Below, in pieces: positions 19,314 through 53,404 of a stretch of DNA of 57,682 nucleotides. This DNA comes from Anaerolineae bacterium (lineage in GTDB: Bacteria > Chloroflexota > Anaerolineae > Fen-1058): positions 1 to 57,682 of the forward strand of contig PMCF01000248.1 of assembly GCA_003154115.1 (NCBI GenBank), in the 5' to 3' direction. The number at the start of each line of letters is the position of its first letter. Position 1 is the first letter of the stretch. The position numbers and the translations under genes were made by a program. The notes under the pieces are model-generated. The model searched no databases, was not told the origin of the DNA, and saw only the letters and a list, made by a program, of their open reading frames with translations.

Positions 19314-19414
19314 GACTAACGCCCTCCAGCGTTTGATCACGTAGTGCATGAAGTGCATGCACACACAAAGCACAAAAGGCTATGCCCTATTTCTAAGGCA
19401 CAGCCTTCTGTGTT

Positions 19415-20410: not shown

Positions 20411-22749
20411 GAATCACCGGCGAAGACCTCGCCGTCATCAATGAAACGCTGCGCACGGGCGATCTGAACATCTTCACCAGTCGCTATATGTGCTTACCGA
20501 ACTCCGGCACCATGTGGATGCCGGGAAATGATGCGGTCGGCCATTATCGCGCTGCGTTTCGCTACGACCTGCTGTACGACGCCTGGAAGCGGCTAGGGAG
20601 GCCGGAAGATCAACTCGTCGTCACGGCGCGCGCCTATCAATATAACCTGCGCGTGGTGTGGGACGGGGTGGACCCGACCTTCCTGCTGCCCCACGGCTAT
20701 ATGTTTCTCGATTGGGTGAAGCCGGTCATCGATCCGGCGACCAACCTTGCCCTCATCATCACCGGCACGGGTACAGGCAAGTGCCTGCCGGGACGATCCA
20801 TCGTCTCATGCGCGGATGGGACAAGGAAACGCATAGACGAATTGCAGGTCGGGGACAAGCTGGTTGGTGTGGACGGCTCGTACCGCATGGCAGAGCAGAC
20901 GGTAGTTTCCCGGTGGAGCAACGGTCTAAAGCCATTACTGCGCGTCGTGACGTCCAACGGCACAACGATTGACTGCACCCCCAATCATCCTCTACTTAAG
21001 GCAACCGGGTGGGTTGAGGCCGGGAAGATTGCCGTTGGCGACCGTGTTGGACTTCCGAGGAGTTTGCCATCGTCTCACAAAGAGGCGACGGTCACGTTGG
21101 ACGAGGCCAAAGTTATCGGGTATTTGCTCGGCGATGGCGGGCTGACTGATGCTTCCGCGCGATTCACGAATAGTGATGTCCTTTGGGACAGGGTGGTATC
21201 CATTGAGTCGATCCCGGCAGAGGAGACATTCGACATCGAGGTGACGCCCGATCACAACTTCGTCGCGGACGGATTCTATACGCACAACACCTCCTCCATC
21301 GCGGTTGCCGCTCTGACCTATTGCGTGTTGTATCCCGGTTTCCACTTCATGAACCTGGCGCCTACGGGCGATCAGGCCACCCTCATGATGGAGGAAGCCG
21401 AGAAGTGGATCACCAACACGCCTTACGAGAAATTCATCCGGCGCACACGCACGGGCGAACTGTTCAAGATGAAGCCGCAGCCGAAGATCACCATTTCATC
21501 CCCCTTGGGCCCGAAGCATCCATCGTGGTTCGTCTGTCAAACCGTAGGTCTGACGGGGGACTCGATGCTCGGCAAGCACGAGGACTGGACGAACATCGAC
21601 GAAGTGCAGCTGGTCGATCACATCGAGGAAGTGGTACCCAAGGTCGTCACGCGTAGCCGCGGTCAACGCTCGTCCGGGTCAATGCGCTGGTCGAAGTTGA
21701 CGATGCTCACCAATCCGGGGCCGAACCCGGCCCTGTTAGAGATTCGCAAGCTCATCGAGAAATTGCAAGCCGATCCCGATACCCGCGTGAAGGCGATCTT
21801 CATGAAAGACATTGATTCGCGGGTGAACGTCAACATCAGTGATCGCCAGCACGAGACGATGACCGCGCTGATGGACGCCAGCGATCGAGAGCGCTGGTTG
21901 GGTGGCTTGGCCGATGCGGGCTTATCACGTGGCGACATTCCGACCAAGTTGATCGAGCGTTGCGAGAGCGACGAAATGACCACGGCGCTGAAGGACGGGA
22001 AGTACGAAGTGATCAAGCGCGACGGCATGGGCATTATCCATTACGAGATACCGCCGGACGGCGATCACGAGTACATCGTCGTAGGCGATCCCGGCATGGG
22101 TAATCCGGTCAAGAAGTCACTGAATAACATCCCGATCGTGCTGGTGTTCGACATCACCGATTTCTTAACCAGACCGGCCCGGCTGGTCTACTTCTCGATG
22201 ATCGACGGCATGAACGAGTACAAGCCGTGGCTGTCCGAGTTTCGCAATTGCATGTTGACCTACAGCGCCAAAGGGTATTACGACGCCACGAACTTGCAAC
22301 AGGCATTTGAATCCGCCGGCGCGTTCGACGGCGGCATCGTCGAGGATGGCAAGGGCGGGTTTATCAAGGTGGGCCGACCCTTCGACACCACTCCGGTGAC
22401 CTTCGCCGTGAATAACAAGCGGTGGGCGCGTGGCACATTCGTCATGCTGATGCAGGATGGTCAGTTTGAATGGCCGCATCTCGATACCCTGTGGCACCAA
22501 GCGGCCATCTACAAAGAGACAGGCGAGGGACACCTTAAGCTGGCCGACGACATCCTGGCGGCTATGTTCGTGTACACGTTGGCGTTGCGCATCGAGGGCG
22601 CGCTGTGGGAGAAGATGGCTAAACACTACCATTGGGACGCTGAGGAAGAATCCAGCGGCGCGGAAGAAGACGACGAATCCATGTTCATCGCCAGGCCACG
22701 CAGCAGCGTACGCATTGCGCGCAATCGCCGCCGGAGGGGGCGCAGATGA
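20392..22749 (+). CDS. terL: Terminase large subunit with in-frame mini-intein
   Basis: 785 codons from GTG 20392 (VSKDSLRITGEDL); the frame is open to an earlier GTG at 20317, but that lies deep in the upstream gene. It is the ATP-driven motor that packages phage DNA into procapsids. The ATPase Walker A GTGTGK-TSS is split exactly by an intein (20782-21288). Walker B is NIDEVQ, with ATP-coupling residues downstream. The RNase H-like nuclease has IVVGDPGMG, GYYDAT and LADDILAAMF acids. Spliced product is about 616 aa. Portal and capsid genes follow in the usual order. All catalytic motifs look intact once spliced, so activity should depend on splicing. Confidence 0.92.
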   Translation: MSKDSLRITGEDLAVINETLRTGDLNIFTSRYMCLPNSGTMWMPGNDAVGHYRAAFRYDLLYDAWKRLGRPEDQLVVTARAYQYNLRVVWDGVDPTFLLPHGYMFLDWVKPVIDPATNLALIITGTGTGKCLPGRSIVSCADGTRKRIDELQVGDKLVGVDGSYRMAEQTVVSRWSNGLKPLLRVVTSNGTTIDCTPNHPLLKATGWVEAGKIAVGDRVGLPRSLPSSHKEATVTLDEAKVIGYLLGDGGLTDASARFTNSDVLWDRVVSIESIPAEETFDIEVTPDHNFVADGFYTHNTSSIAVAALTYCVLYPGFHFMNLAPTGDQATLMMEEAEKWITNTPYEKFIRRTRTGELFKMKPQPKITISSPLGPKHPSWFVCQTVGLTGDSMLGKHEDWTNIDEVQLVDHIEEVVPKVVTRSRGQRSSGSMRWSKLTMLTNPGPNPALLEIRKLIEKLQADPDTRVKAIFMKDIDSRVNVNISDRQHETMTALMDASDRERWLGGLADAGLSRGDIPTKLIERCESDEMTTALKDGKYEVIKRDGMGIIHYEIPPDGDHEYIVVGDPGMGNPVKKSLNNIPIVLVFDITDFLTRPARLVYFSMIDGMNEYKPWLSEFRNCMLTYSAKGYYDATNLQQAFESAGAFDGGIVEDGKGGFIKVGRPFDTTPVTFAVNNKRWARGTFVMLMQDGQFEWPHLDTLWHQAAIYKETGEGHLKLADDILAAMFVYTLALRIEGALWEKMAKHYHWDAEEESSGAEEDDESMFIARPRSSVRIARNRRRRGRR
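20782..21288 (+). other. Mini-intein in terminase Walker A loop
   Basis: 169 residues (131-299 of the precursor). It begins with Cys1 (CLPGRS), has Hint block B GTTIDCTPNHPLL, a remnant of LAGLIDADG block C (VIGYLLGDGGL), block F VTPDHNFVADG, and ends YTHN followed by Thr as the +1 nucleophile. Right after block C the sequence passes into block-F-side residues, so most of the homing endonuclease has been lost in frame while splicing residues remain. Insertion lies between GTGTGK and TSS, so the unspliced protein cannot bind ATP. Confidence 0.9.
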
Positions 22750-30352: not shown

Positions 30353-31786
30353 ATGGCTGACACTGATCAAATCCAAGTAGCAAGTGATTCCAAGATCGGG
30401 TTTGGCGTGCAGACCGGCAAGGGCGTGTATACCGTCGCCAACAAGGACTTTCGGTACTTTCCGTTCACGTCTTCGCCGTATGGCATCGTTCAACCCGTGG
30501 CAAATCTCCCCCAAGAGGGTGGCGGCGATCTAACGCCCAAGGGCTCGTACAAGTCGGGTTCATGGGGACAGGGCGGGGTGCAGTTCATCCCGCGCTTCGT
30601 CGATGATCTCGGTTTCATCCTGGCCTCGGTCATGGGACAGGATTACTACGCTACTGCCACGCCTGGCCCAGCCAATGGCGAGAATAGTGCGTTTGGTCGC
30701 TCGACCGAAGATTACACTCCGGCTGCGGCCACCATCACCTTCACGGCGGGCCACATCCTGGACAGCGCCAGCGGCCTGGGCGTGTACAAGGTGGGCGACA
30801 TCATCAAGGTGTCCAACAGCGTTAGCAACAATGCCACGCCCTTCACGGTGACAACTGCGGCGGCTGGCGACTTGACCGTTACTGGCAACACAGTGGTCGA
30901 GGCGACTCCCGTGAAAGCGACTATCGCGCTGATGAGTTCTATCGACGCAACGGCAACTGGTTCGCAGATCCACACCTTCGCATTCAAGGCCAAGCAGTCC
31001 GACGTGCCCTATGTGACGGTACGCAAGTTGCTGGAAGGGCCGACCCCGCTGGGCGAGGAAACGGTGGACAACCGCTTCGGCCAGATGGAATTGACCCTGC
31101 CCAATGTGGGGCCGATGACCTGCGCGCTGGAACTGAATGGTCGCACCCCGGCCAATCGCAATATGTTCTACGCTGATCCATTCAACAGTGTGGGCAGCGA
31201 TCCGAACAGTGTGGGCCGCAGCGCGTGGTACGACGCCGCAAACAACGGCTACGACGATGACACGGCGTTTGGCTTGAGCGTTGACCCGAACTCGGTCGTG
31301 AAGATCGCGGGCGGCAAGATTCAATGCACGGGCGCGGTGATCACCACGGCCAACAATCTCCAGCAAGCCGACGCGGGCCGCATCATCGGGGACATCACCC
31401 CGTTGGACTTCCCGGTGTTGAGCCGCGTGATGTCCATTCGGGCGCAGATGTTCATGACCGATGACTACATCTATCGGCAACTGTTCACCGGCTCCCTGAC
31501 GGGCCGCAAGTTCAGTTCGAAGATTTACGCGGGTGACATCGACTTCCGGGCGTATTCGGCGGTCGGCATCACCAGCGCAAGCATTGCGACACAGTACGCC
31601 CTGCAGGCGTTGACCAATGACACGAACGTGCAGTGGTCGCTGCAAGGCGCAGTTGATCCGAAACCGGGCCAGCCGTTGACCATGACGCTGGTGGGCACTG
31701 TGCAGCGACCTGCTACACCGGGCAAGAAGTACGCGATGGTTCGCTTGCAGAACGCCATCTCCAATGCGTATCCGTATGTTGCTTAG
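30353..31786 (+). CDS. Major tail tube protein
   Basis: 477 aa. Contains a beta-sandwich core typical of tube proteins (GFGVQTGKGVYTVANKDFRYFPF at the start, TLPNVGPMTCALELNGR middle) and an Ig-like insertion around residues 120-205 (TVTTAAAGDLTVTGNTVV). It is followed by the tail-assembly chaperones and the tape measure, the conserved order in siphoviruses. It polymerises as hexameric rings around the tape measure protein (family knowledge). Confidence 0.75.
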   Translation: MADTDQIQVASDSKIGFGVQTGKGVYTVANKDFRYFPFTSSPYGIVQPVANLPQEGGGDLTPKGSYKSGSWGQGGVQFIPRFVDDLGFILASVMGQDYYATATPGPANGENSAFGRSTEDYTPAAATITFTAGHILDSASGLGVYKVGDIIKVSNSVSNNATPFTVTTAAAGDLTVTGNTVVEATPVKATIALMSSIDATATGSQIHTFAFKAKQSDVPYVTVRKLLEGPTPLGEETVDNRFGQMELTLPNVGPMTCALELNGRTPANRNMFYADPFNSVGSDPNSVGRSAWYDAANNGYDDDTAFGLSVDPNSVVKIAGGKIQCTGAVITTANNLQQADAGRIIGDITPLDFPVLSRVMSIRAQMFMTDDYIYRQLFTGSLTGRKFSSKIYAGDIDFRAYSAVGITSASIATQYALQALTNDTNVQWSLQGAVDPKPGQPLTMTLVGTVQRPATPGKKYAMVRLQNAISNAYPYVA

Positions 31787-31894: not shown

Positions 31895-32335
31895 ATGAAG
31901 GTTAAAACCAGTCCAGTTGTATCACCTCCGATCCCGTTGCGCGAGATGTCAGAGGAATTTGCGAAGCATGAAGGCGAAGTGAAAGACGAGGAACGCTGCA
32001 TGGTCATCGTCCGGCAGGCTATCGAACAAGACAACATCGCGCGCGCTGAATTGCAAGCCAAGCGGCAGATGCAGTGGGGCGCCGGGGCCGTGAGTGAGAT
32101 CGTCGAGGACAATCCGCGCCAACGATTCATGTACGAGGCGTGGTGGACATTAGTCGAGGTGATCAACCTCGAATACGAAGATGGCACGCCCGTCTTCCCG
32201 TCGACGCCGATTCACAAGATGAAGTTCGCGGACTTCGAGAAGATTTGGGGCGCACGCGAGTCGTACATCACCCAGGCCATTCACAAAGCCGTGCGCAAGA
32301 CGAACCCCGATTGGGATTGGGAGGGGGAAGGTTAA
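31895..32335 (+). CDS. Tail assembly chaperone (gpG-like short form)
   Basis: 146 aa. Helical, acidic sequence with EDNPRQRFMYEAWWTLVEVINLEYEDG in the middle. It lies between tail tube and tape measure, where lambda-type phages encode a chaperone that binds the tape measure during tail assembly. The frame ends at TAA 32333-32335 right after a GGGGGAA sequence that permits -1 slippage into the next frame. Confidence 0.75.
   Translation: MKVKTSPVVSPPIPLREMSEEFAKHEGEVKDEERCMVIVRQAIEQDNIARAELQAKRQMQWGAGAVSEIVEDNPRQRFMYEAWWTLVEVINLEYEDGTPVFPSTPIHKMKFADFEKIWGARESYITQAIHKAVRKTNPDWDWEGEG
32323..32329 (+). promoter_or_regulatory. Candidate -1 frameshift slip site (GGGGGAA)
   Basis: In the zero frame the codons are GAG GGG GAA GGT TAA. 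A slip of one base at the G run lets GGG re-pair exactly, giving GGG GGA AGG TTA AAG and reading on into the 3' frame (product ...GGRLKAHLDSIK). It is placed six bases before the zero-frame stop, as in known gpG/gpGT systems. Confidence 0.7.
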
Positions 32336-32652
32336 AGGCACATCTGGACAGCATCAAACAGGCTGTGCGTGAGCACTTGAAGTACCGGGAATACAAGCGG
32401 TTGATTCGTATTCCCGGTACGGCACTTACTTTGTGCCCGAAAGAAGCCATTCTCCCCAATGGCGATCCTGATGGTGTGCCTGACGTGTATTTGATTTATC
32501 GAGACTGCGTAGATTGGGGAAAGATGTGGTGGGACGGCGGCATGGCCGATCAGCCTCACTTTTTAATGCTAGAGTTTGCCGCCTGTCGCGCAGCCGAACG
32601 CGACTTTGCCACTACCGACTTACCGTTCTTGGAGGGACTCGCCTCTAAATGA
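32332..32652 (+). CDS. Frameshift extension of tail chaperone (gpGT-like T domain)
   Basis: About 106 residues (LKAHLDSIKQAVREHLKYREYKR... to ...LEGLASK) with no usable start of its own except an unsupported GTG at 32365. It is in the -1 frame relative to 31895-32335, so it is best read as the C-terminal extension made by frameshifting. Contains a Trp/Cys-rich patch (YRDCVDWGKMWWDGG). Its stop overlaps the ATG of the giant gene (ATGA). Confidence 0.7.
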   Translation, partial: LKAHLDSIKQAVREHLKYREYKRLIRIPGTALTLCPKEAILPNGDPDGVPDVYLIYRDCVDWGKMWWDGGMADQPHFLMLEFAACRAAERDFATTDLPFLEGLASK

Positions 32653-35600
32653 TCACTCAGTCACTTAAGCCCGTAACCTATCAAGATGTCGTAGTCCACC
32701 CCTCGAAGGTAGCGTCGATGACGCACACCGATCCGAGCGGCGTGCGTGATCGGCAGATCATCAGTCAGAAAGCGATGATGGACGCGCAGTCGCAACAGTC
32801 GATGGACATCGGCACTAACTTTGATAACTGGTTATCCAGTGACGAAATTCAGACCATCATTCAGCGCAGCATCCGCAGTGGCGGGACTGTGGCGCAGATG
32901 CTCCAGAGATATGGTTTCGCCGGGATGCGTACGCAACGATTCGTCGAGGGCAAGATAGGCGACGTTCGTTTCGGTGGAACGTATGACTTGGCTTTCACGG
33001 ACGCACAGGGCAAAGAACAATTGATTCCTGACACCAAGGTATCGGGGGGTCGGGAATTCATCTCGCAGCCCGCCTCTGGCGCACTCGTGATCGGGACGGG
33101 CAAGGGTCGCACGAACTACGGTATGCAGGTGCAGGGTTACGCCTACGCCACTGGCGCGCAGCAGGTGGCTATCACCAAGATCAATCCGCAATCGGCTGGC
33201 GAGATTCGGTCGCACTTTGACACGTTGAATGACGCCGATCGGGAAGTGTACTTGGCGAAGGTGCTGGAAGCGTATCTGGCGGGTGGTCAGAATGTTGCCA
33301 ACACAGGCGACTTGAGTGACGCGGTAGTCGCTGGCCTGCCACAGATCCAGGCTATTCAAACCCTGCGGCAGAACGTGCTGCCACAGAGCGAGTTCGAGAA
33401 GGGTGGCAAGGTCTACGGTGAGTATCGCGGTGTGGCCGAGCGCGATGCGGTCATTGAACGGCTTACTGGCGTCTCAGCAGAGAAACTTAATTCCGACAAA
33501 CTCAATCCAATTCCGGCAGGGCACGAGCAACAATATGCGCAGATGTACGCGGTGGCCAGCAAGCTGGCCGACGAAGTTGTAAAGGGTACGGTTCTCCCGT
33601 CGGATGCGAAGCGCATCCTCGATCGCGTGCAGTACGCCTCGCATGTGCCGTGGGATTCGTCCAAGGTGCAAGGCGCACGAGCGAAGGGTGCAGGCGTCTC
33701 AGAGGGACCGCTAGGATCCATCTCATCTAACTATGGCGAAGCGGCTCCGGCGGGATTGGCAAAGATTCTTGGCAGTGGCGTTCGGGTGGAGGGTGATGAG
33801 GTTACGGTCGCGTCGGAAGGCAATCGCAATGACGCGACTGGGCTTATGCCGGTGGCCTGGCGCGGCAAGATCGGCGAGTTTCGTGGCCGTCCTGTTGTCA
33901 ACAACTACCTGATCGCCAAAGAACAAGGCACTGACGGCAAGGTGCGTGAAGCCAAGCTGCTCCAAGAGGCACTGATCACTTTCGAGCGCGCCGGCGGCGG
34001 TTCGATTGGGGCCGATAAGGTCAAGCAGTTGATGCTCGTCAAAATGCAGGGGATGCCGTGGCTCAATCCTGCCTGGCAGAACGTTTCTTCGTCTGGCGCT
34101 CAGGCCCTGCTGCGCGAAGCAGTGCATCTGACCGGGACTGAAGACATTCAGGCATGGTACGCCAAGTCCCGTGAATACAACCTCGTGGCGCGTGGCGACG
34201 ATCCCAGCATTGGTTACGCCATCGACAAAGTGATCTCCGCGACGGCAGGTGGCACGGCCGCTAACGGCATGGTCTACACCGGTGAGCAAGACCCCTTGAA
34301 GGTTGAGAAGCGTTTGCAGCAAGCCCTTCGCCGTGAAGGGCTGATGAACGCGCAAGTAGGTAAGGATCGCAACGTCGCGTCTGTGATCCAGATGGAGGGT
34401 GCCGATCGGGTTGAGTTTGGTATCCGCCTGCGCCGAGCCGCGATGACCAGCGTCTTGCCGGAAGGCATGGGTATGGTCGATGCCGATGTGATGCGCGAGA
34501 TGGGTTACCTGGAATTGCCGTACGCGCACCGTATCCAGATCAATCAAGGTGACATCTTCCAGGCCAACGCCAAACCAGAACTGGTGAATGGCAAGTTGCA
34601 CTTGGGCACGATCAACGGCGTGCCCAAGACCATCGATCTCAAAGACTTCCAGGACTTCAAACTTGGCGGCGAACCGAAGATCGTCATTGAGAACGGCAAG
34701 CAATACATTGAGTTGAGCGGTATTGGGCGCATCGATCCGGCGTCTGATACGTTCAAGTCGTGGCTTGGCAACAAGTACATGGGCATGGCCGAGGAAGGAT
34801 TGTCTTACGGCACACGTGCCCACGGATCACTCAAGGAAGGATCGATTGAGGCTCTACTGCCCATGCCGAAGAACATTCGGCAAGCGGCCTACGTCATGCT
34901 GGCGGGTGAGTACGGAGCTGGCGAAAACAAGCGCAAATCACAGAAAAACTTCGACGCCCTAACTAGAGAGTTTAAGGAGGCAGGGGTCGATCTGGCCGAG
35001 CGCGGTTTGTTGACTGACTACTCTGACGAGGAAATCAAGCACGCCAAGTCTCTGGGCATCGCTCTACCCTCGAAGAAGATCATCTGGAACCACAGCTTAG
35101 ACGAAGCCGTAGAAAAAGTGGCGCGTAAGAAATATGCGAGTGCGCTGCGCCTGGGCAAGAACACTACCTTCAACCGCAATATGTCCTATGAGGAAGCGGC
35201 GATGTATGCGCGCATCCTTGGAGAAGACGCCCTCCGGATTGGCAACAATGGCGGCACGCTGGAACAGTGGGAACTCCTGCGCAATCAACGGCAGACCATC
35301 GGCGTGAGTCTGACTGTGCCGACGGCGATCATGTCCGTGATGCAGCAGTTCGAGCACCAGTCCACGGGCCGGGCTTCGTTGTCGATGGAAGAAGCCATTG
35401 ATATGGTGAAGTCGGCTGGCAACCATCTGGACAACGGTGGTTTCCAAACGGCTGAGTACGCCAAGTGGGTCAAGGATCAGTTCATCCCGGCGTTGGGGGC
35501 GAAGTCGGGTCACACCCGTGAATACTACGACAAGTTATTTGATGCCCAACTCGCTTCGCGCGGTGGGCTGAAACTCGACGAGTCGAACGTCGTTTCGATT

Positions 35601-38600
35601 GAACAAGTCGCGGAATACTTCAAGGGCGTGAACTTCCACCAAGCACTCGCCGGGGCGCGTGGAAGTAGCGAGAGCAATCCGTTGCTGTCCGCGATTCAGG
35701 GCAAGATGATTCGCCTGGGCGACGGCACGATCATTCCGCCACTTAACACGCTGGCGATCATGTCCGTGGGCAGCGAGATGCATGATGCGCCCGGCCACAA
35801 GTACGATGACGAGTCGGACAAGTTCCCGCAAGAGGAACACAACTCGCTGATCTACTCGCTGGAAAATCTGATGGCCGAGAACCAGGGTTCTGCGCCGGCG
35901 CAAAAATACTCCAAAGAGCTGGCCGAGAAGCTGGATAAACTTGTGCGCACCAAGAGCGTGAACAAGAACATTGCCGCGTTCAACGTCACCGGATCGGGCG
36001 GCACCGAGCAGCCCTACGTGGGCACGACGGGCCTGCGCCCGTGGCAAGTGGTCATGGGCAACAAGGCGCTGCGCGATCTGTTCGGCACTGATGACATCGG
36101 AGAAGTAAATCGACGCATAGCGGCTGGCGAGAACATGGTGCTGACTCAGCGTCGGCCCAACCCCCTGCCCGAACTAACCTCGATGACCCCCATGCAAATC
36201 CTGACACCTGAGATGGCGCGTTCTCAGGGTGCTAACCATATCTCCAAAGCGTTTAATGGGATTGCTTTCTCGCAAGCCGCGATGGACCCGAAACAGGGCG
36301 ACTTTGACGGCGACCGCGTGTTGGCTATCTTGGCCGCATCCTACAGCATGGGTGACATGGGCAAGCAGATGGGCCTTGATGGGACGAATCTGGAAGACGC
36401 CTATCTGGGCAAGATGCGTGACGCACTTGAGACGATGACCGGCAACACGGGCAAGTACCTCAAGGGCGAGTTCACGTGGGATCGGTATCTCGACGCTGTG
36501 ACCGAACTGCGTAAGTCGTCCGGTAGCAATATGTCGGAAGTAGCGAAGTGGATGCAGACGGTTGGTGACGACTCGGCCTCGATGGACAAGTTGATCGGGA
36601 AAGAGGGCAAGTTCCAGGCCGGGATGACCATCGATCAGGTGCGCAGTGCCTACATGACGCGCCAACTGTACAAGAAGCAAATGGGTATGGTGATGAATCG
36701 CTTCACGCGCAATGCGGGTCAGATGATGGAAGGGCTTGGCCTGACTCAACGTACAGACTATCAGCAGACGGCTGATCGGCTGCGTTACTTTACCTATCAA
36801 GCCTCAATCGACAATCCAGTTAGCACAGGTCTGCGTCGACTGATTGAAATTTCAGACTCTTACACGCCAACAACAGACGGCGAGGGTGGACGCCTGTACG
36901 GAAATATCAGGCATGGCCTGCGCCAAGAGATGGGCGAAGATACGCTTGAGAAGGTTGACTTCAAGGACATGCCTGCTGAGATCATCAAGGCGACGTTGGC
37001 GTCTTCTGAAATGCGCGGGTTGGGCAAAGAGGGATCGCTGATCAACGAGTCATGGGCGGAGGACATTGGCCGCTTACTGACATCCAACACAGATCGGGCA
37101 GGTCAGATCGCCGCGTTGATCAAGGGCAGCAAGTTGATCGCGGATCCATCTGACGAGCGCGAAATCCGGTCACTGACGGCCGACATCCTCCAGGAAGTGT
37201 ACGGCGACAAGACTGAGGACTTCTGGGCCGAGCCTGGCGTCATGCCGGCGATCATCGGCGGGCACATGGCGAAACGCGCCGAACGCCGTGGCGGTGGGGC
37301 CAACTACGACATGCTGTTTAGCGATGACTATAACCGCTATCAGGGTGGCAAGCGCGTCAGCGGATGGGGCGCGATTGCCGAATTATCAAAGGGCATGCAA
37401 GCCGAGCAATCCTTCTTCAGCGGCCGTAGCGGTGAAGTTAGTACCGATCAGATGATCAAGGACATCGCCGGGATGAAGGGTCGCCTGCCTGACGTGATTC
37501 GTTCAGTGCTGAATGTCTCGAACCGGGCCATTCCAGAGGAATTGCTACGCCGACTGGCACCCAATAGCCAGACACGCGACGCCACACGTCTCTCCGCGAT
37601 CGTGGGCCGGTACAAGCAAACCGACGCCTATCAAAAACTTGGCAATCAATTCGGCGGCGTTGATGAACTGGCGTTCATGACCGACGACGAGATGAAGAAC
37701 ATTCTCATGCGTAAAGACGAGCTGATGCGGAATGGCATGAGCGAGTCTGATGCGCTGGCGAAGATTGCCGAAGAAAAGAAAACGTCGTCAGCCAAGATCG
37801 CTGAAGAAGCAGCCGCAGGCGTAAATGCTTTTGACCGAGAAGATGGTACTTCGCAACCGCAACCGAAGAACACCCGCGACGGTTCGCTCAACGGGTATCG
37901 CGCGGGCGTTAACTTCCCGCGCCCGACGATGGCCAGCACGTTCGGTGGGCCTGCCTGGGGTGAATTGCTCAAGCGGATTCGCGCCGGTGAACAGATTCCC
38001 GATCGAGCGGCAGCCGCGGCGATGATGGGCGGCGAGGGTGAAGCGAACATTACCAAGTTCGGCATGTCGGCAATTCAGGCGCTTGGACAGGGAGAGAAGG
38101 GATACAAGACCTTCCAAACTACCTATGATCGCTTGAAGACACTTGGCGCGCACAGTTTGGCGGCTGAATATCAAAAAGCGGCAGCAAACGCCGGCGTGCT
38201 TAATAACGAGTATGGCAGTAACTATTCTACTCGGCTCGATCAGGCGCAGGCAGGTGCTATCAACAATCCGACGGCCCTGATGGGCGTGCTGACCGACTAT
38301 CAGACCGGGCAGATGGGCAAGAAGGGTGTTCAGTCCATTGTGCAGACATCGGGTGTCAAGGGGATGAACGGCGTTCTGCAGGAGATTGATCGCCGCAACT
38401 CAGCCATTCAGCACACCTCGCCCGATGAACGCGAGGGCATGACCAAGCAACTGCAAGAGTACATGGCAACAGCGGCTGGTAAGGCTTCCTTTGGCGACAA
38501 GAAGCAATTGGTAGACGCTGATCACCTTGAGGAAATGGGCAAGGCGGCAGCGCGTGTTACGGAACATCTCGGTAAGTTCACCGGTGGATTGAAAGATGCG

Positions 38601-41600
38601 ACTGAACTGGTTGGCAAGAACCAAGCGCCGAAGGGCGTAGGGAAACTAAAGCCTGATCTCGACATGGTTTCACAGTTGGTGAAGGCGGCGGATCGTGGCG
38701 ACTCTACCGCTCAGGGCATTCTGTCCAGCCATGATGAGAAGGGTATTCGCCAGGTGGCCGGTGAAAACACCAACCTTGACGACAAGATGAAGCGCGCCAT
38801 GCTGGAAGGCAAGGGCGAGTTCAACCCAGACGGGCCGTTTAGCAAACGCCTGGGAAGCTTCATGAATGACATGACATCGGGGTTCGAGTTGTTCCGCATG
38901 CAGCGCATCTGGAGTGCAACCGGTGGGCAGACGTTCAACAAGTACATTCCCGCCGCGGCGAGCGATGCTCTTACGCTGGCTGGCGCGTCACGTGTTATCG
39001 GTGGGGATCGGGTCGGGCCTATCTCTGGCATGGCTGGCGAAATGCTCCAGGGCGAAGCCGCGCGCAAAGACATCAACATCAATGCAGGCAAGAAGGCGTA
39101 TCAAGCTTGGGGTCCGTTCGTCAATGCTAATGCGGGATGGTTTTCAGACGCGCAGGCTGTGGCTGGCCCGGCACTTGGTGCAGGACTCATTACGGGGTTT
39201 GTTGGATCAAATATCGCCGGACTGCTTGGTGCTGGCGCGATGGCGAGTCCGATTGGGCTGCTGGCGGGGGCGGGAGTTGCTGGCGCTGGTCTATTCATGG
39301 CTAATCGCAATATCCGCGAAGCCGAAAGCAAGATCACACCAGACAATCAACTGACTAATGCGCGAAACATGGCGTTGTCCGGTATCGATCTGGGCGCTAT
39401 GCGCCAACAACTGGCAGAGAAGCAGAAGGAGCCTGAAGTTGCGTGGTGGACGTACCTACTTTCTGACTTTGGCTACATGGCGCAAAGCGAACAGAAGTCT
39501 CAGCGCGCGTCCGAAGTTGGCAAGATGAAGAACGCTATTTCGGGCGCAGAGAAGATCGCGGGTGTCTCACTTGGCAATTTGCCGGGAGAATACATCCAGC
39601 CAACGGTAGAACTGATGGCTAAAGATTCGGCCAATAAGGGCATGTTCATTGGCTACGATCAAGAAGCGATGAAGAAGAAGATTCAAACCGCTGCGCCTTA
39701 CGACTCCGACATGATGAACTTTCGGCCCGTGAGCACTGATCAGTTCCAGGCGACCAGTTTCATGAAGCGGCTCGAATCGTCGGCACTTGGCTTCGAGGGT
39801 GCATTGAATCTCGCACAACAGACGGCCGCTAAATACAATCTTGGCCCACAGAGCGTCGAGGGTGTGGCAAACAATCAGCCAACCTCGATGAAAGACATCC
39901 TCGGCTATATGTACAAAACCGATATGTTTGCGCCGGCGCAAAGGTGGGGGATCAATCCGTTGGCCGCAAGCAAGCTGCCCCTGCTCGAAGGGAGAGACGC
40001 GATTCGCGCCCAAGACCTAATGAGCGGCGACCGTACAGCCTGGACGAAGACTGGTACAGACTTGTGGAATCAGGGTGTGCGTGATCTGGGAAATGGCGAT
40101 CAGATTCAGGACGTGTTCACGATGGAGCCTGGCACGATGGCACCCATTGGCACGACGGACACATCGAAACGTTCACGCAAGGCGATTGCTGGCGCACAGG
40201 CCACGATGGGCCTGCGCACGGGTGAGTTCGGAATCAATGCCGACATGAGTAATCTGGGGTCAATTGCTTCGCTGGAAACGACCAAACGCGATCTGGAATA
40301 CGGTTACCAGATGCAGCAGTTCAGTTTCCAGAATCAGGCTCTACAGTCTCAACGGGATTACGCGATGGGCAGGCCAGCCGTCTACAACGGCAGCCAGATG
40401 GATCCTGGCCTCGTTGGGTCGTTTGGTTGGCAGGAGCGGAGTCAAGCTGAGTCAGTGCGTCACACGCAGGCGCAGGCGACGATTGCCGCCGGCACGATGA
40501 ACTTTGGTTATCTGGGCCAGGGACTCAGCCAACAGGTGGCCGGGGCCAGTCTGAGTGAGCTGGGACAGTCGGGCGTATCCTATCGGCAGTTCTATGAAAA
40601 CCTGGACTTGAATCGGCGCCAGTCGAAGATTGGGCGTGATTACAGCGCTGAGGATGCTCAAATATCGCACGATCGCGGCACTATGCAAATAGGTTGGCAG
40701 CAGAGTGATCTTAGTACAAACTTCGGGCGGCAGATGACGGATTTCACTCATCAGTTGCAAGACCTAACTACCAATATGTCCCGCAGTCGCACACAGACGG
40801 GCTGGCAGCAGGAGCAGATCGCCTTTCAGGGAGCACAAACATCGCTCAACTATGGCTGGAATTCGGAAGACATTGACGAATCCCTGCGTTATGCAACAGG
40901 TCGTGATCGCCGAAGATTGTTAAAGCAAAAAGAGCGATCAACAATATCATACGCCATGAACATGGGCCAACTAGACACGGAATCTGGTCATCTCAAGGAA
41001 AAATCAACCTGGTCGGAAGAGGATTTCGCTAAAGACAAGTCTCGCATCGAGGAACGGCGTGCGTGGGCCAGTGCCGATTTCGAGAAAGAGAAAGGGCGGC
41101 TCGATCAGCGTGACGCCTGGCTTGACGAAGACCTGGCGCGCGCGTTGGTTAGACTCGGGACGCAAAACACCCTAGAGGATGAATCCTACGCCCTCCGGGT
41201 TAAGCAGTTCGAGGAAGATATGGCAATGAGCAAGACCAGTCACGACGAGGGTCTAGCGAATGCTAAAGCACTTGCCGATATTCAAACGGGGTCGGCCGCC
41301 GAGGCCAGGTCGCAGTTTGAGGACAACTGGAGTCGCAATAAGGAAGAAGCAAGTGCGGCCCAGACTCAATATGGACTGATGCGCGATACGGTGGGGCAAT
41401 TGAGCGCGGCCACAGCGGTTGCTTCAATACAGGCAAACGTTTTTGCATATGACTTTGGGGACAAAGACGGCGTAATGGCGAAGTCGTTCGATATGTTCAC
41501 CAAGAGATTCGGTGGCATGTTCGATCAGATCAACACATCGACTGACGACGCAGGCAGACGGATCAAGGCCATGTTGGACAGTTTAGCGTCTGGAACTCAG

Positions 41601-41651
41601 TCGGTTCCTTACAAAGAAACGTGGAGCGGTGGCGGCACCTACGGGAGATAA
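32649..41651 (+). CDS. Giant tape-measure protein fused to an RNA-polymerase-like core and a PD-(D/E)XK nuclease region
   Basis: 3000 aa. ATG 32649 overlaps the chaperone stop (ATGA). Residues about 60-190 carry a RecB/Cas4-type nuclease pattern: Asp113 in GTYDLAF, PDTK with Asp128 and Lys130, and QxxxY at 160-164. Around 600-780 is a beta-rich region (PEGMGMVDADVMREMG) that could be the first double-psi barrel. RRPNP (1168-1172) and GDFDGDRV with DFDGD at 1218-1222 match the RxP and metal-binding loop of the beta-prime-type barrel of multisubunit and QDE-1/YonO-type RNA polymerases; QMGMVMNRFTRN (about 1343) follows. About 2170-2220 is a Gly/Ala-rich hydrophobic span. The last ~500 residues form Gln/Arg/Glu-rich helices typical of tape measures. 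Position sets the tape-measure role; polymerase and nuclease activity are inferences. Confidence 0.85.
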   Translation: MITQSLKPVTYQDVVVHPSKVASMTHTDPSGVRDRQIISQKAMMDAQSQQSMDIGTNFDNWLSSDEIQTIIQRSIRSGGTVAQMLQRYGFAGMRTQRFVEGKIGDVRFGGTYDLAFTDAQGKEQLIPDTKVSGGREFISQPASGALVIGTGKGRTNYGMQVQGYAYATGAQQVAITKINPQSAGEIRSHFDTLNDADREVYLAKVLEAYLAGGQNVANTGDLSDAVVAGLPQIQAIQTLRQNVLPQSEFEKGGKVYGEYRGVAERDAVIERLTGVSAEKLNSDKLNPIPAGHEQQYAQMYAVASKLADEVVKGTVLPSDAKRILDRVQYASHVPWDSSKVQGARAKGAGVSEGPLGSISSNYGEAAPAGLAKILGSGVRVEGDEVTVASEGNRNDATGLMPVAWRGKIGEFRGRPVVNNYLIAKEQGTDGKVREAKLLQEALITFERAGGGSIGADKVKQLMLVKMQGMPWLNPAWQNVSSSGAQALLREAVHLTGTEDIQAWYAKSREYNLVARGDDPSIGYAIDKVISATAGGTAANGMVYTGEQDPLKVEKRLQQALRREGLMNAQVGKDRNVASVIQMEGADRVEFGIRLRRAAMTSVLPEGMGMVDADVMREMGYLELPYAHRIQINQGDIFQANAKPELVNGKLHLGTINGVPKTIDLKDFQDFKLGGEPKIVIENGKQYIELSGIGRIDPASDTFKSWLGNKYMGMAEEGLSYGTRAHGSLKEGSIEALLPMPKNIRQAAYVMLAGEYGAGENKRKSQKNFDALTREFKEAGVDLAERGLLTDYSDEEIKHAKSLGIALPSKKIIWNHSLDEAVEKVARKKYASALRLGKNTTFNRNMSYEEAAMYARILGEDALRIGNNGGTLEQWELLRNQRQTIGVSLTVPTAIMSVMQQFEHQSTGRASLSMEEAIDMVKSAGNHLDNGGFQTAEYAKWVKDQFIPALGAKSGHTREYYDKLFDAQLASRGGLKLDESNVVSIEQVAEYFKGVNFHQALAGARGSSESNPLLSAIQGKMIRLGDGTIIPPLNTLAIMSVGSEMHDAPGHKYDDESDKFPQEEHNSLIYSLENLMAENQGSAPAQKYSKELAEKLDKLVRTKSVNKNIAAFNVTGSGGTEQPYVGTTGLRPWQVVMGNKALRDLFGTDDIGEVNRRIAAGENMVLTQRRPNPLPELTSMTPMQILTPEMARSQGANHISKAFNGIAFSQAAMDPKQGDFDGDRVLAILAASYSMGDMGKQMGLDGTNLEDAYLGKMRDALETMTGNTGKYLKGEFTWDRYLDAVTELRKSSGSNMSEVAKWMQTVGDDSASMDKLIGKEGKFQAGMTIDQVRSAYMTRQLYKKQMGMVMNRFTRNAGQMMEGLGLTQRTDYQQTADRLRYFTYQASIDNPVSTGLRRLIEISDSYTPTTDGEGGRLYGNIRHGLRQEMGEDTLEKVDFKDMPAEIIKATLASSEMRGLGKEGSLINESWAEDIGRLLTSNTDRAGQIAALIKGSKLIADPSDEREIRSLTADILQEVYGDKTEDFWAEPGVMPAIIGGHMAKRAERRGGGANYDMLFSDDYNRYQGGKRVSGWGAIAELSKGMQAEQSFFSGRSGEVSTDQMIKDIAGMKGRLPDVIRSVLNVSNRAIPEELLRRLAPNSQTRDATRLSAIVGRYKQTDAYQKLGNQFGGVDELAFMTDDEMKNILMRKDELMRNGMSESDALAKIAEEKKTSSAKIAEEAAAGVNAFDREDGTSQPQPKNTRDGSLNGYRAGVNFPRPTMASTFGGPAWGELLKRIRAGEQIPDRAAAAAMMGGEGEANITKFGMSAIQALGQGEKGYKTFQTTYDRLKTLGAHSLAAEYQKAAANAGVLNNEYGSNYSTRLDQAQAGAINNPTALMGVLTDYQTGQMGKKGVQSIVQTSGVKGMNGVLQEIDRRNSAIQHTSPDEREGMTKQLQEYMATAAGKASFGDKKQLVDADHLEEMGKAAARVTEHLGKFTGGLKDATELVGKNQAPKGVGKLKPDLDMVSQLVKAADRGDSTAQGILSSHDEKGIRQVAGENTNLDDKMKRAMLEGKGEFNPDGPFSKRLGSFMNDMTSGFELFRMQRIWSATGGQTFNKYIPAAASDALTLAGASRVIGGDRVGPISGMAGEMLQGEAARKDININAGKKAYQAWGPFVNANAGWFSDAQAVAGPALGAGLITGFVGSNIAGLLGAGAMASPIGLLAGAGVAGAGLFMANRNIREAESKITPDNQLTNARNMALSGIDLGAMRQQLAEKQKEPEVAWWTYLLSDFGYMAQSEQKSQRASEVGKMKNAISGAEKIAGVSLGNLPGEYIQPTVELMAKDSANKGMFIGYDQEAMKKKIQTAAPYDSDMMNFRPVSTDQFQATSFMKRLESSALGFEGALNLAQQTAAKYNLGPQSVEGVANNQPTSMKDILGYMYKTDMFAPAQRWGINPLAASKLPLLEGRDAIRAQDLMSGDRTAWTKTGTDLWNQGVRDLGNGDQIQDVFTMEPGTMAPIGTTDTSKRSRKAIAGAQATMGLRTGEFGINADMSNLGSIASLETTKRDLEYGYQMQQFSFQNQALQSQRDYAMGRPAVYNGSQMDPGLVGSFGWQERSQAESVRHTQAQATIAAGTMNFGYLGQGLSQQVAGASLSELGQSGVSYRQFYENLDLNRRQSKIGRDYSAEDAQISHDRGTMQIGWQQSDLSTNFGRQMTDFTHQLQDLTTNMSRSRTQTGWQQEQIAFQGAQTSLNYGWNSEDIDESLRYATGRDRRRLLKQKERSTISYAMNMGQLDTESGHLKEKSTWSEEDFAKDKSRIEERRAWASADFEKEKGRLDQRDAWLDEDLARALVRLGTQNTLEDESYALRVKQFEEDMAMSKTSHDEGLANAKALADIQTGSAAEARSQFEDNWSRNKEEASAAQTQYGLMRDTVGQLSAATAVASIQANVFAYDFGDKDGVMAKSFDMFTKRFGGMFDQINTSTDDAGRRIKAMLDSLASGTQSVPYKETWSGGGTYGR
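35890..35903. repeat. Phage palindrome site 10 (variant)
   Basis: CTGCGCCGGCGCAA, first base differs. Coding (SAPAQK) inside the giant gene, about 400 bp before the DFDGD codons. Confidence 0.8.
39928..39941. repeat. Phage palindrome site 11
   Basis: Exact TTGCGCCGGCGCAA (extended TTT...AAA), coding (FAPAQR) in the tape-measure part of the giant gene; rightmost site. Confidence 0.9.
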
Positions 41652-46129: not shown

Positions 46130-47358
46130 TGGCGAACGTACAGTTCAAGCAATGGATGTGTTCTGACACAGAACCATCGTTCACGCAAGAGACAGGGCTG
46201 CAGCGTCTACTGGCCTTCGCCGGTATTCACAATACCGCCTCGCGTTCGCTGGTGCCCGATCAGGTCGGGGTCTACAACTGGCGAGAGGACTATCAGGGCG
46301 ATGCGACTTTCGATGCGAGTGGCTGTTCCCTTGGCGGAATTGACAACGGAGTATGGAATAAGGTCTTCTTGACCGCCGACGTTTCCTATGGATTTACAGC
46401 GGACTTCGACAAAGAGGGCACTGTCGGCGGGTTCCTGTTTGGGGGCAAGACCGGTAGTTGGCGTTGCTATCTGGTGTGGTGGACGGCCAGTCGGGTTGGA
46501 TTGTCGCTATTGAACGGCACGGACGGATACACCGAGTCACCCCTGCTCTCGCTTCCCTTCTCTGCCATCGATGCCGCGCACATACAAGTCGCCGTGAAGG
46601 GGATCAGTTCAACGGCCATCGACAAGGTGGACGATCTCATGGTGACGTTGCGCCTCGATGATCGCGTGATCTTCTCCTACGCCATGCAGCTTGACACGTC
46701 CATCGGCAATCAGATTGGTCTCGCCGTGCAGGGAAATAACGCGGCGCGTTTCGAGAACCTACGTGTAGCGCAGTTTCACCAGATCATCGAGATCGCGTCA
46801 GTCGGCCCGACCGAGAAAGCCGCAGCCGGCGCGAGTCGCATCCTGGGCATGGAGATGATTCGCCTGCAGGCCCGCTTCGATGGCAGTGTCCTGATCTGGC
46901 GCAACGATTTGTCTACTTCGGACTGCACCATTCAGCAGGGTGACTACAAGACATTGACGGTCAAGGAAGACCTGCTGTCGCCTACGCACTTCCGCCTGAC
47001 GGGCGGATTGTACGAGGCCGATGTCTACGCCGGCCTGGATAACGCCACGGGTATCGCGCAGCATCGCGGCCACATTTTTGTGACGGCCAATGATCCCAAT
47101 GCACTGGTCGAGCGCGATACTTTCGATCGGGCCAAACGCAAAGCGCGCGAGACAGTCGAGGCGGCTAACGCGATTGAAATCGACGTGCCCTTCAAGCCAT
47201 TGCTGGAAGCAGAGGATGTGATTGAAGTGGTGTTTCCCTACGGCATCACGCCGGTTTTGTATCGCGTGACCACCATCGACTTCAAGTCGTCGAGCACCAA
47301 AGACGCGACTCAGTTCGAGAGTAAGTTATCTTGCCGGAGGCTGATCAGTGGTTTCTAA
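46129..47358 (+). CDS. Putative tail hub/baseplate protein with lectin-like insertion, 409 aa
   Basis: ATG 46129 overlapping the previous stop (TAATG). N-terminal lectin-like beta domain (about 20-220). The C-terminal half includes RDTFDRAKRKARETVEAANAIEIDVPF and VIEVVFPYGITPVLYRVTTIDFK, which resembles the phage hub (gp27-like) pattern. If so, it is a hub decorated with a binding domain. Based on motif resemblance. Confidence 0.5.
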   Translation: MANVQFKQWMCSDTEPSFTQETGLQRLLAFAGIHNTASRSLVPDQVGVYNWREDYQGDATFDASGCSLGGIDNGVWNKVFLTADVSYGFTADFDKEGTVGGFLFGGKTGSWRCYLVWWTASRVGLSLLNGTDGYTESPLLSLPFSAIDAAHIQVAVKGISSTAIDKVDDLMVTLRLDDRVIFSYAMQLDTSIGNQIGLAVQGNNAARFENLRVAQFHQIIEIASVGPTEKAAAGASRILGMEMIRLQARFDGSVLIWRNDLSTSDCTIQQGDYKTLTVKEDLLSPTHFRLTGGLYEADVYAGLDNATGIAQHRGHIFVTANDPNALVERDTFDRAKRKARETVEAANAIEIDVPFKPLLEAEDVIEVVFPYGITPVLYRVTTIDFKSSSTKDATQFESKLSCRRLISGF

Positions 47359-49087
47359 AGCGCAACTTCCCTACGTGTTGGAGCAAGCCACAGTTATAAG
47401 TTACGACCCGCGCGACCCACGCTCGATTGCGATCCGTACTTCCGGTGGGCGCGTGATCCGTAACTGCATGTCGAGCGGTGGTTCGGTAAGCGTGGGATCG
47501 ACGGTGATGGCCGTCATCTCCCATTACGACAACGGCGCTGTCATCATCGGCACTGTGCAGAACTCGTCCTCAATTGCTGCCGCAGGAACCAGCTGTAGTA
47601 ATGCGGCGCTCAATCCACCGTCCGGCCTGCACATCACGCACACGGTGCGACAGATCGACTTGCAGTGGGATTTCTACCCCGGCAATGATAGTGTCTGTTA
47701 TCAGGTGCAGCACAATGCCACGGGCGAGGAAGACGGTACGGAAGTATCGGCCCTCGTCACCAAAGGCTCGAGCTTCATCTATGACTGCACGACGCCGAAC
47801 GAGACACGTTATTTCAGAGTGCGCGCTTTGCAGTGGATCACTGCTGGCAATGTGTTGTACTCCGCCTGGGCTGAATGGCAGCAAGGCTCGGCCTATCAGT
47901 TGCAAGCCGTGGACATTCCCAATCTGGATGCAGCCAAGATTGCCACGGGAATCCTGCCCATCGAGCGAGGTGGCACCAACGCCGGAACAGCCGCCGCTGC
48001 CCTCAACAATCTGTTACCGGCACAGAGTGGCAATACGGGTAATGTGTTAGGGACTGATGGTTCAGTGGTCAGCTGGGTTGTTGGTGGAGGCAGCGGGGGC
48101 GGTTCAATCACAATCGCTAATCTGCCCGTAGGCGTTATCATTCCTTATGGCAGCACCATCATGCCGACCGGTTGGTTAGAGTGTGATGGTTCAGCCATTA
48201 GTCGCACAACTTATGCCGATCTCTTCGCTGTGATTGGCACAACCTATGGATCTGGAGATGGCAGCACCACCTTCAATTTGCCTGACTTGCGTGGGCGCAT
48301 GTCGATCGGACGTGGTACGGGTAGTGGACTTTCTGTGCGGGCGATGGGAGATAAGAACGGAGATGAAACTCACACTCTATCGGTAGCAGAAATGCCAGCG
48401 CACGGTCACGGCGAGGTAGACAAAGATGGCGTACCAGTATCCTCTGGTAAATTCCCAGGCACAGGAGCAATGACAATTGGAACGGTTTCGGCTGATCCGG
48501 AAGGACAACCGATGACCAGTAACACCGGCGGCGGCGGGGCGCACAATAACATGCCGCCATTCGTCGTGATGGCCTGGATCATCAAACATACCGATACAGC
48601 CACTGCGGATGTGATCTTCAACGATAGTGTCCTGCCCGAAGCAGTTGCAGATGTAGGGTCGCCGGGTGATGACATCTACGCCGCCCGACGCGATCATGTG
48701 CATGCCTCCTCGATAGGTGGTGGACACGCGATTGCGTCGGAGTTTGATCTGGTGCCGCCGGAGCCGATTCTTAATTTTAGTGCTGCCTTCATGTTGGATG
48801 ATGATCCGGTCAATGGACGCACGTTGGTCGATCTAGCGCGACCTCCGTTGACTGTGGAAGAAGTTGATGGATCACCTTCTGTATCTGTGTTGAGAGTTCG
48901 GGTCGGCAATGGCGATCTTGTTGACGAAGGAGATGGAGTCGTGCGCCTCAAGACGGCTTCTGACGCAAGTGGAGTGGCGGCAACAGGTCGCTATCGGCAG
49001 TTTGTGTTTGTAGTTTCTGATGGTGACTTTTCATTTGTAAAAATAACAGACGGTCATCCTGTGACCGTCCTACTACCCCTGGAGTGA
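47348..49087 (+). CDS. Tail collar/spike protein with OB-fold, fibronectin III and tail-collar domains, 579 aa
   Basis: GTG 47348 after GGAGG, overlapping the previous gene by 11 bp. N-terminal OB-like domain (LEQATVISYDPRDPRSIAIR ... SVGSTVMAVISHYDN) as in gp5-type spike proteins; an FN3-like domain (about 95-185); then a phage tail-collar domain with the hallmark GWLECDGSAISRTTYADLF and FNLPDLRGRMSIG; a His-rich turn (MPAHGHGE) and MPPFVVMAWIIK. The collar module is well known at the tail tips of long-tailed phages. The C-terminal 160 residues are another beta domain. Confidence 0.8.
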   Translation: MVSKAQLPYVLEQATVISYDPRDPRSIAIRTSGGRVIRNCMSSGGSVSVGSTVMAVISHYDNGAVIIGTVQNSSSIAAAGTSCSNAALNPPSGLHITHTVRQIDLQWDFYPGNDSVCYQVQHNATGEEDGTEVSALVTKGSSFIYDCTTPNETRYFRVRALQWITAGNVLYSAWAEWQQGSAYQLQAVDIPNLDAAKIATGILPIERGGTNAGTAAAALNNLLPAQSGNTGNVLGTDGSVVSWVVGGGSGGGSITIANLPVGVIIPYGSTIMPTGWLECDGSAISRTTYADLFAVIGTTYGSGDGSTTFNLPDLRGRMSIGRGTGSGLSVRAMGDKNGDETHTLSVAEMPAHGHGEVDKDGVPVSSGKFPGTGAMTIGTVSADPEGQPMTSNTGGGGAHNNMPPFVVMAWIIKHTDTATADVIFNDSVLPEAVADVGSPGDDIYAARRDHVHASSIGGGHAIASEFDLVPPEPILNFSAAFMLDDDPVNGRTLVDLARPPLTVEEVDGSPSVSVLRVRVGNGDLVDEGDGVVRLKTASDASGVAATGRYRQFVFVVSDGDFSFVKITDGHPVTVLLPLE

Positions 49088-51828: not shown

Positions 51829-52154
51829 GGGTGCAAACACTCGTTGACAAACAGCCAACTGGCACAATTTATGTCGCCTGGGATAACGCCGACACGCATC
51901 AAGACGACGAAGTCGAGGCCGTGGTGCGCGGCGCGGCTGGCCGGCTGGTCTTGTTGTATCTGCCCACGTATAGTCCTTGGCTGAATCCGATTGAGATGTT
52001 GTGGCGCCACTTCCGCCGGGAAGTTACCCATTGCGAACTCTTTGAAACGGTCGATGCGTTGCTCCAAGCGAGCCGCGCTTTCTTTGAACGCTGTAATCAA
52101 CATCGGTCGCAAGTGCGCTCAATCATTGGCTCTCTTGCCGCAGGACTTTCGTGA
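51829..52154 (+). pseudogene. IS630-family transposase C-terminal fragment
   Basis: Reads VDKQPTGTIYVAWDNADTHQ...LYLPTYSPWLNPIEMLWRHFRREV: the second Asp region (DNADTH) and the PTYSPWLNPIE catalytic Glu motif of IS630/Tc1 transposases are present. The N-terminal two thirds are absent, so it is a non-functional fragment. It abuts a recombinase fragment at 52155. Confidence 0.8.
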
Positions 52155-52436
52155 ATGTACTTAGCCCCGCGCGCAATCCAGGCCGTGGTCGAACAGGTCG
52201 GTCGAGTGGCGGCTTCGAAGGTGCCGGCGCGTGGAAATGAGGAACGCGAGATCATCGAGGCGCTGAATACGCTCAGTCCACATGTGTTGAGGCATACCTT
52301 CGGCAAGCGATTGCTCGATGCCGGCGCACAGTTGACTGAGGTAGCCGAGATTCTGGGCCATGAGGATTTGAATGTAACGGGACGCTATACTCTACCGAGC
52401 GCGGCTGATTTGCAGCGGGCCGCTGATAGGATTTGA
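52155..52436 (+). pseudogene. Tyrosine recombinase/integrase C-terminal fragment
   Basis: About 93 residues: SPHVLRHTFGKRLLDAG (HxLRHTF box), LTEVAEILGHEDLNVTGRY with LGH and the nucleophilic Tyr. The N-terminal core-binding domain and first catalytic Arg are missing. Probably all that remains of the phage or a transposon integrase, about 0.6 kb from a tRNA gene. Confidence 0.8.
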
Positions 52437-53011
52437 GGTGTGTCAAAACGTGATGTTAGCCATAAGCTGGATCTCGATGGGATAAGACCAGAGATTGGGG
52501 TCTTTTGCAGAGAGGTCATGCTTCACGCATGATAGCGGCAATCAACAACTTAGTCCTAGGAGTTTTGCTTAATCGCAGTAAAAACGTACCCGATTCACGA
52601 CACATATCTCACCTTTCGACCATTTTTCCATGCCACCCGCGAATTAAGAATGCCTAGTTTTCAAGGCATTTTCGCGCTGGTGGACAAGGCCCCGGGTGTC
52701 GCTGAGCCAAGTTTTCACCTGCAACATCTTGAGTCTAAGCAGGCAACCCGCTCTAATTCGGCTAAAAACCAGGGTGTTTTGCGACTTATGTTCGAGTTAA
52801 TTCAAAAACGGCGCTCCAAAATGGTCGAAAGATGAGACATATAGTATGGTAAACCGGTTATATGCGTTTCCACTGATTTTGTATCGTTCCGGATGAATTT
52901 GTACAAGCCTTGGAAACGTTACGCGAAGATATATGCAGCTGAGCAAATCCGATTTATATAGATAAGTGGTTGGTCAAATGTAAGGCAGAACAATCCCTGA
53001 TAAGGCATTAG
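52437..53011. other. 575-bp non-coding region with MITE-like element
   Basis: No convincing gene. Contains the inverted-repeat element at 52607-52837 and A/T-rich flanks. A 61-codon open frame inside that element shows no recognisable protein features. Confidence 0.4.
52607..52837. mobile_element. Putative MITE (231 bp) bounded by 20-bp inverted repeats
   Basis: TCTCACCTTTCGACCATTTT (52607-52626) is the inverse complement of 52818-52837 with one mismatch. Inside there is a short open frame without known motifs. Non-autonomous element is the simplest reading; target duplications were not identified. Confidence 0.5.
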
Positions 53012-53095
53012 TGGACAGGGAGGGAATCGAACCCCCGAACGGCGTCGCCGGGCTGATTTACAGTCAGCGTCCTTTAGCCACTTGGATACCTGTCC
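53012..53095 (-). tRNA. tRNA-Tyr (GTA)
   Basis: Minus strand GGACAGG acceptor pairs perfectly with CCTGTCC; D arm CCAAGTGGCTAAAGG; anticodon arm GCTGA-CTGTAAA-TCAGC with GTA; a long class-II variable arm (CCGGCGACGCCG); T loop TTCGATT. CCA is not encoded. Full, normal-looking gene; likely former integration target near the integrase fragment. Confidence 0.95.
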
Positions 53096-53404
53096 GTTAT
53101 TAGAGCGTTAGACTCAATTGAAGGACTGATGGAAAAGGTTAAACTTGCACTCCTTCACTTACAGTCTGGCGCTCCGCCCTCGAATCACATCATGGATCAT
53201 TCGATGTTAGACACGCTTCGCGGGCGACAACTTCTCGCCCGCTGTAGTGACATTATACCCATGTGCACCGACTTGGTCAAGATAACGAGTTGAATCGTCA
53301 CTGAATGCCACCAAATGCGATTCATTTGCTCACGAACGAACGTAGTTGAATTAATTCCTTTCCTCATGGCATGACTCATCTAAAAAAGAAGGTGGTATAA
53401 CGCG
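53096..53404. other. 309-bp intergenic region, nothing recognised
   Basis: Between the tRNA-Tyr 5' end and the IS256-family element. It should hold the tRNA promoter, but I cannot define its boxes. Confidence 0.4.

Follow-up and report, generated by a model that had tools for sequence, protein, structure and literature searches.

The window analysed here is the whole of a 57,682-nucleotide contig from an Anaerolineae bacterium (PMCF01000248.1), which belongs to a 7.7-Mb genome in 460 contigs. Cellular genes stand on both of its flanks, an AMP-binding enzyme at 10976-12814 and a W/Y-type tRNA synthetase at 56107-57105, and the phage region between them (approximately 13-52 kb) is therefore probably a prophage. 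Its integrase is seen only as a 93-aa fragment beside transposase pieces, so the prophage may be defective. The center of interest is P0001, an open reading frame (ORF) of 3000 aa that runs as one uninterrupted, stop-free frame from 32649 to 41651 on the plus strand. The features discussed below are as follows, with residue numbers referring to P0001 and L007 denoting a counterpart locus in a second genome, G277.

16092-19373, minus strand: P0006, 1093 aa, hypothetically a second, non-virion RNA polymerase (RNAP)-like protein (family alignment motifs)
30353-31786, plus strand: probable tail tube protein, 477 aa (gene position only; counterpart L007 1991-3100)
31895-32335, plus strand: small ORF, 146 aa, in the tape-measure-chaperone position, G-like (counterpart position L007 3336-3851)
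32336-32652, plus strand: another small reading frame, T-like and in -1 relation to the first, ending at the tape-measure start (putative frameshift)
32649-41651, plus strand: P0001, tape-measure-position ORF with an RNAP-like core, 3000 aa, Cys-free (motif and C-terminal homologue evidence)
32949-33146, plus strand: PD-(D/E)XK-like pattern, unverified (D113, D128-x-K130, Q160..Y164; pattern match)
34416-34943, plus strand: candidate DPBB-B, residues ~590-765 (RLRRAAM..EGMGMVDADVM..HRIQI; TRAHGSLKEG; by-eye resemblance only)
36150-36164, plus strand: RRPNP, residues 1168-1172, RxP element of the putative DPBB-A (motif)
36300-36314, plus strand: DFDGD, residues 1218-1222, putative catalytic Mg-binding motif (motif)
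36672-36698, plus strand: KKQMGMVMN, residues 1342-1350, post-barrel G-N motif, PNYLGICTN in QDE-1 (motif and profile alignment)
39186-39338, plus strand: Gly/Ala-rich, hydrophobic, membrane-segment-like stretch, residues ~2180-2230 (sequence)
40293-41558, plus strand: helical repeats of the C-terminus, residues 2549-2970 (the segment also conserved in other ORFs at the tape-measure position)
47348-49087, plus strand: tail collar fibre protein (Pfam Collar, 4e-25; PHROG tail protein, 1e-38)

A Probable Tape Measure by Position and C-Terminus

Upstream of P0001 lie the tail-tube candidate and then the two small overlapping ORFs, and downstream lie distal tail genes that include the tail-collar fibre protein; this is the position of a tape measure. 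The two ORFs at 31895-32652, overlapping in a -1 relation, are arranged like the G/GT tail chaperones, and a G-rich stretch near 32323-32329 might permit frameshifting between them. The C-terminus of P0001, for which a tape-measure-like character had been proposed, is helical and conserved with other tape-measure-position ORFs: residues 2549-2970 match ORFs of 3433-3566 aa, two in the genome G277 and one in G283. Around the G277 copy on contig C5 the order of tail genes is similar, with a tube-like protein, two overlapping small ORFs and the tape measure, and the tube counterpart there (L007 1991-3100) matches the minor tail protein family phrog_290 (E=1e-15). For P0001 itself, the PHROG search gave no tape-measure match and nothing better than E=0.14. 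This would suit a large injected multi-domain protein of the polyvalent type, in which an RNAP is one of several domains and no tape measure is involved, and such proteins in IMG/VR do carry the same motif (e.g., L033 9475-19161). We nonetheless regard this as improbable, given that the P0001 gene follows a tail tube and a chaperone-like pair, and that the protein has both the hydrophobic Gly-rich segment and the helical C-terminus common to ORFs in the tape-measure position.

An RNA Polymerase-Like Motif Set and Its Conservation

The original prediction had placed an RNAP-like core within this tape measure. The 3000-aa ORF, RRPNP, DFDGD and the motif downstream, together with D113, D128-T-K130 and Q160-Y164, all lie at the positions that it gave. 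The hallmark of DPBB-A, RxP followed by DxDGD, is present in P0001 at the level of motifs only, and the G-N element that comes after DPBB-A (LGICTN in QDE-1) is present as QMGMVMN at residues 1344-1350, at a spacing of 126 as compared with 49-99 in relatives. In composition shuffles, GDxD[GS]D without a following Gly arose anywhere in the 3000 aa with p=0.011. An RxP 36-56 residues upstream of the DxDGD motif had p=0.10, a G-N motif 40-140 residues downstream p=0.005, and the two together p=5e-4, values that are somewhat generous because P0001 was already considered when the G-N pattern was drawn up. The combination of DFDGD, RxP and G-N in P0001 is well beyond chance.

Comparison with the G277 proteins and with copies in G303, a relative of G277 (one intact and one broken, found using the G277 core), extends this picture. 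Where P0001 reads RRPNP...QGDFDGD...QMGMVMN, these orthologues read RNPAS...GHPxxFHPHxVQxQGGDNDSD...QIGQAYN, and their RNP, GGDNDSD and QIGQAYN have the same absolute position and spacing as the motifs of P0001; outside this module they have diverged from P0001 beyond the reach of BLAST. The tape measures of G277 and G303 (L006, L007, L015) are thus like P0001 in joining the tape-measure position to an RxP...DxDxD...G-N module, and differ in having DNDSD for DFDGD. An HMM built from the three intact G277/G303 sequences, none of which contains DFDGD, gave residues 1152-1223 of P0001 a score of 1.4, above 1000 of 1000 shuffles that kept GDFDGDRV (mean -19.7, maximum -0.3). The G283 ORF shares the C-terminus with P0001 and has no DxDGD. 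Conservation of DFDGD in homologues, which the original prediction had expected, accordingly fails to the letter and holds for its three Asp, which are retained as DxDxD in every copy seen; because all three remain, DNDSD in the orthologues does not refute the RNAP reading.

The loss of the Gly could also be taken as a sign of decay. On such an account, P0001 would be a tape measure whose RNAP core has lost catalysis and is retained as a structural or DNA-binding module, in a prophage that is perhaps a decaying remnant. One of the G303 copies is broken, few early genes are recognisable in the prophage-like region, and its integrase fragment near transposase pieces fits as well. Yet no break interrupts the 3000-aa frame, GGDNDSD survives even in the broken G303 copy, and the three Asp persist throughout, in the canonical form DFDGD in P0001. 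We therefore hold a non-catalytic core to be unlikely, if somewhat less so than the polyvalent protein considered above.

Close to its N-terminus, the G277 protein P0002 carries two helix-turn-helix (HTH) matches (Pfam HTH_23, 8e-7), and HTH_23/sigma-region-4-like matches occur at residues ~140-186 of the G277 orthologue at L007 5742-16040. Judged from these matches, a promoter-recognition element fused to the RNAP is possible.

Profile, HMM and Structure-Model Comparisons

Scans for the wider family (QGDFDGD and GDFDGDxV in IMG/VR, QGDFDGD in GTDB) yielded many large RxP...GDFDGD proteins, including cyanobacterial plasmid proteins, multi-domain phage proteins and, on large viral contigs, proteins that resemble RNAP subunits. 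One cyanobacterial plasmid protein matched the Pfam RdRP family PF05183 at E=0.004, under the curated cut-off. The G-N motif was found in 16 of the 63 DFDGD ORFs with sufficient flank, 14 of which, P0001 included, also have RxP; the remaining two start so close to DFDGD that an RxP could not be assessed. A profile of P0001 residues 1093-1402 and 21 distant phage and plasmid rows with RxP...GDFDGD, compared with all PDB chains, found QDE-1 best (5fsw, E=5.3e-5; 2j7n and 7y7p, 3e-3), in an alignment that runs through RSP, GDYDGD and PNYLGICTN. As P0001 contributes only one of the 22 rows, this match identifies the wider family and not P0001 alone; that P0001 belongs to the family is argued from its orthologues, the shuffle tests and the set of three motifs.

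The same collections bear on the most prosaic account of DFDGD, in which it is a calcium-binding loop of the EF-hand or dockerin type, or mere chance, in an ordinary tape measure. DxDxD loops are common, and dockerin- or thrombospondin-like repeats account for many of the GDFDGD ORFs collected. In EF-hand and dockerin loops, position 6 is usually Gly (DxDxDG). That residue is Arg in P0001 (DFDGDR) and Met, Glu or Gln in the orthologues, and on this ground we rejected the EF-hand/dockerin assignment. Moreover, the motif of P0001 is a single, non-repeated copy with the RxP and G-N elements in the right order, and none of the clear repeat-type DFDGD ORFs has the G-N motif. Of the alternatives weighed here, a calcium loop or chance seems to us the least credible.

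Other comparisons were less discriminating. A general DPBB-A HMM gave P0001 15.3 bits against a maximum of 16.5 in shuffles that kept GDFDGDRV; this test is blind, because the experimentally proven polymerase gp96 of phage P23-45 (see below), at 14.8, also fails to exceed the shuffles. An HMM of Thermus RNAPs alone did not single out P0001, with 59 of 1000 shuffles scoring equally high. P0001 had no match in Pfam, PDB sequences or GenBank phage proteins, nor did peptide-pattern scans with it match anything in IMG/VR and GTDB. A C-terminal profile run over 400 genomes of the phylum and IMG/VR found only itself, and hhalign of P0001 against the cyanobacterial or P0006 profiles aligned GDFDGD alone or nothing. 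AlphaFold models made without close homologues had a pLDDT of 38 (single sequence) and 46 (with remote rows). Foldseek on the latter returned nothing at E<1 (best E 1.6), and the few RNAP largest subunits among its weak rows are non-significant and partly alignment-driven. As for the second barrel predicted at residues ~600-780, a resemblance can be seen by eye and the low-confidence AlphaFold model did not confirm it; none of the tests on P0001 identified DPBB-B and its lysines.

A Precedent in Thermus Phage P23-45

P23-45 is a long-tailed Thermus phage with a tape-measure-fused virion RNAP. Within its 5,002-aa tape measure, gp96, lies an active two-barrel RNAP which transcribes the pre-early genes; one of these encodes gp64, a second and non-virion RNAP (Chaban et al., 2024; PMC10770324). 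The crystallised fragment of gp96 spans residues 327-1124, with DFDGD at 779-783 and an RNP element ~40 residues before it (PMC10770324). An RNAP fused to a siphovirus tape measure is thus already known, being experimentally proven for gp96, and the earlier view that virion RNAPs belong mostly to podovirus tails and that such an architecture is undescribed is out of date (PMC10770324). P0001 resembles gp96 in carrying an RNP...DFDGD RNAP-like region in the N-terminal part of a giant long-tailed-phage tape measure. It differs in its length (3000 vs. 5002 aa), in the position of DFDGD (1218 vs. 779), in having no metallopeptidase that Pfam can find, and in its setting, a probable bacterial prophage as opposed to a Thermus phage. 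In tblastn searches P0001 had no detectable pairwise similarity to gp96 or to any GenBank phage protein, and it therefore shares the kind of gp96 and not its sequence family. Among other known systems, the Neurospora RNAi polymerase QDE-1 (PDB 2j7n, 5fsw) can be aligned with the profile that includes P0001 through its RSP, GDYDGD and PNYLGICTN-type elements; it is cellular and without a tape-measure fusion. The virion RNAP gp66 of the crAss-like phage phi14:2, likened to P0001 by its description as a single-chain, two-barrel enzyme (PMC10770324), is not a tape measure.

With the motif set, the orthologues, the QDE-1 profile match and the gp96 precedent all supporting an RNAP-like core fused to a tape measure within one intact 3000-aa frame, we consider it very probable on sequence grounds that P0001 is the tape measure of a siphovirus and that its N-terminal half houses a single-chain, two-barrel RNAP. 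Its presence in the virion and its catalysis are argued by analogy with P23-45. By that analogy, P0001 would sit in the tail tube and, on infection, exit the tail with the DNA or ahead of it. DPBB-A with DFDGD would bind Mg ions at the interface with the second barrel, and the RNAP would transcribe the first phage genes during DNA entry, independently of the host RNAP.

A further tape-measure-fused RNAP is apparently encoded on an IMG/VR contig (3300028805_000078, L077; L207 7745-23602). This tape measure, of at least 5286 aa and unrelated to P0001, has PHROG tape-measure matches (E=3e-23) and DFDGD at residue 1041, followed by RFRLGRISN; its RNAP part has no match among GenBank phages. Taken alone, the fusion in P23-45 might have passed for a Thermus peculiarity. 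Its recovery in at least two more, mutually dissimilar tape-measure lineages, that of P0001 with G277/G303 and that of L207, suggests a recurrent and widespread strategy in which the tape measure links transcription to DNA entry. P0001 is very probably a new, distant example in a new lineage, and one of the lineages lies in bacterial genomes. Ordinary annotation misses such RNAP regions because they have no Pfam, PHROG or GenBank-phage match, and the G277/G303 proteins offer concrete targets as putative RNAPs with a DNDSD catalytic motif.

Large DFDGD proteins also occur in other settings. The L033 protein, a phage protein of 3229 aa with several domains, combines a DprA-like domain with DFDGD at residue 2686. 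Cyanobacteria encode large two-barrel-RNAP-like proteins that lack annotation (L037, L054, L055, L063, L070-L074), one of which (L055) has a macrodomain. Many of them lie on plasmids; 89 plasmid records were matched, 38 of them predicted to be conjugative.

The N-Terminal Nuclease Pattern, P0006 and Other Features of the Prophage

The nuclease-like N-terminus once proposed for P0001 finds no backing beyond its PD-(D/E)XK-like pattern. This pattern is loose, recurring in 1239 of 20000 shuffles of the N-terminus (6%), and a Pfam search of P0001 for a nuclease domain gave no match.

P0006, which has no PDB or Pfam match, belongs to a family present in 17 of 396 genomes of the class, its own included, often in several copies each. 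The family alignment shows DGxGxxS...GxxxKGH and GGxDxDDxxW...WRSPNxxGEY, with D561, D563, D564, R584 and P586 invariant, motifs that are reminiscent of RNAP barrel elements in changed or permuted order. By analogy with P23-45, P0006 may be a second, non-virion RNAP, which we offer as a lead only. A fuller scenario, in which the injected tape measure of a temperate siphophage unites RNAP and nuclease and the phage also carries P0006 as a second, non-virion RNAP of a rearranged two-barrel family, strikes us as doubtful; were it true, a prophage-forming virus would own a two-step transcription programme.

Several smaller observations concern the region as a whole. At its right end (51831-54622) are fragments of DDE_3, the Phage_integrase C-terminus and the Mutator family, and a tRNA-Tyr at 53011-53095 adjoins the integrase and transposase fragments. 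No cysteine occurs anywhere in P0001, and none was seen in its G277 and G283 counterparts. Finally, the terminase-like protein encoded at 20317-22749 on the plus strand has its Walker A motif split by an intein (TGTGTGK before CLPG...HN, and T after it; Pfam Intein_splicing, 5e-19).
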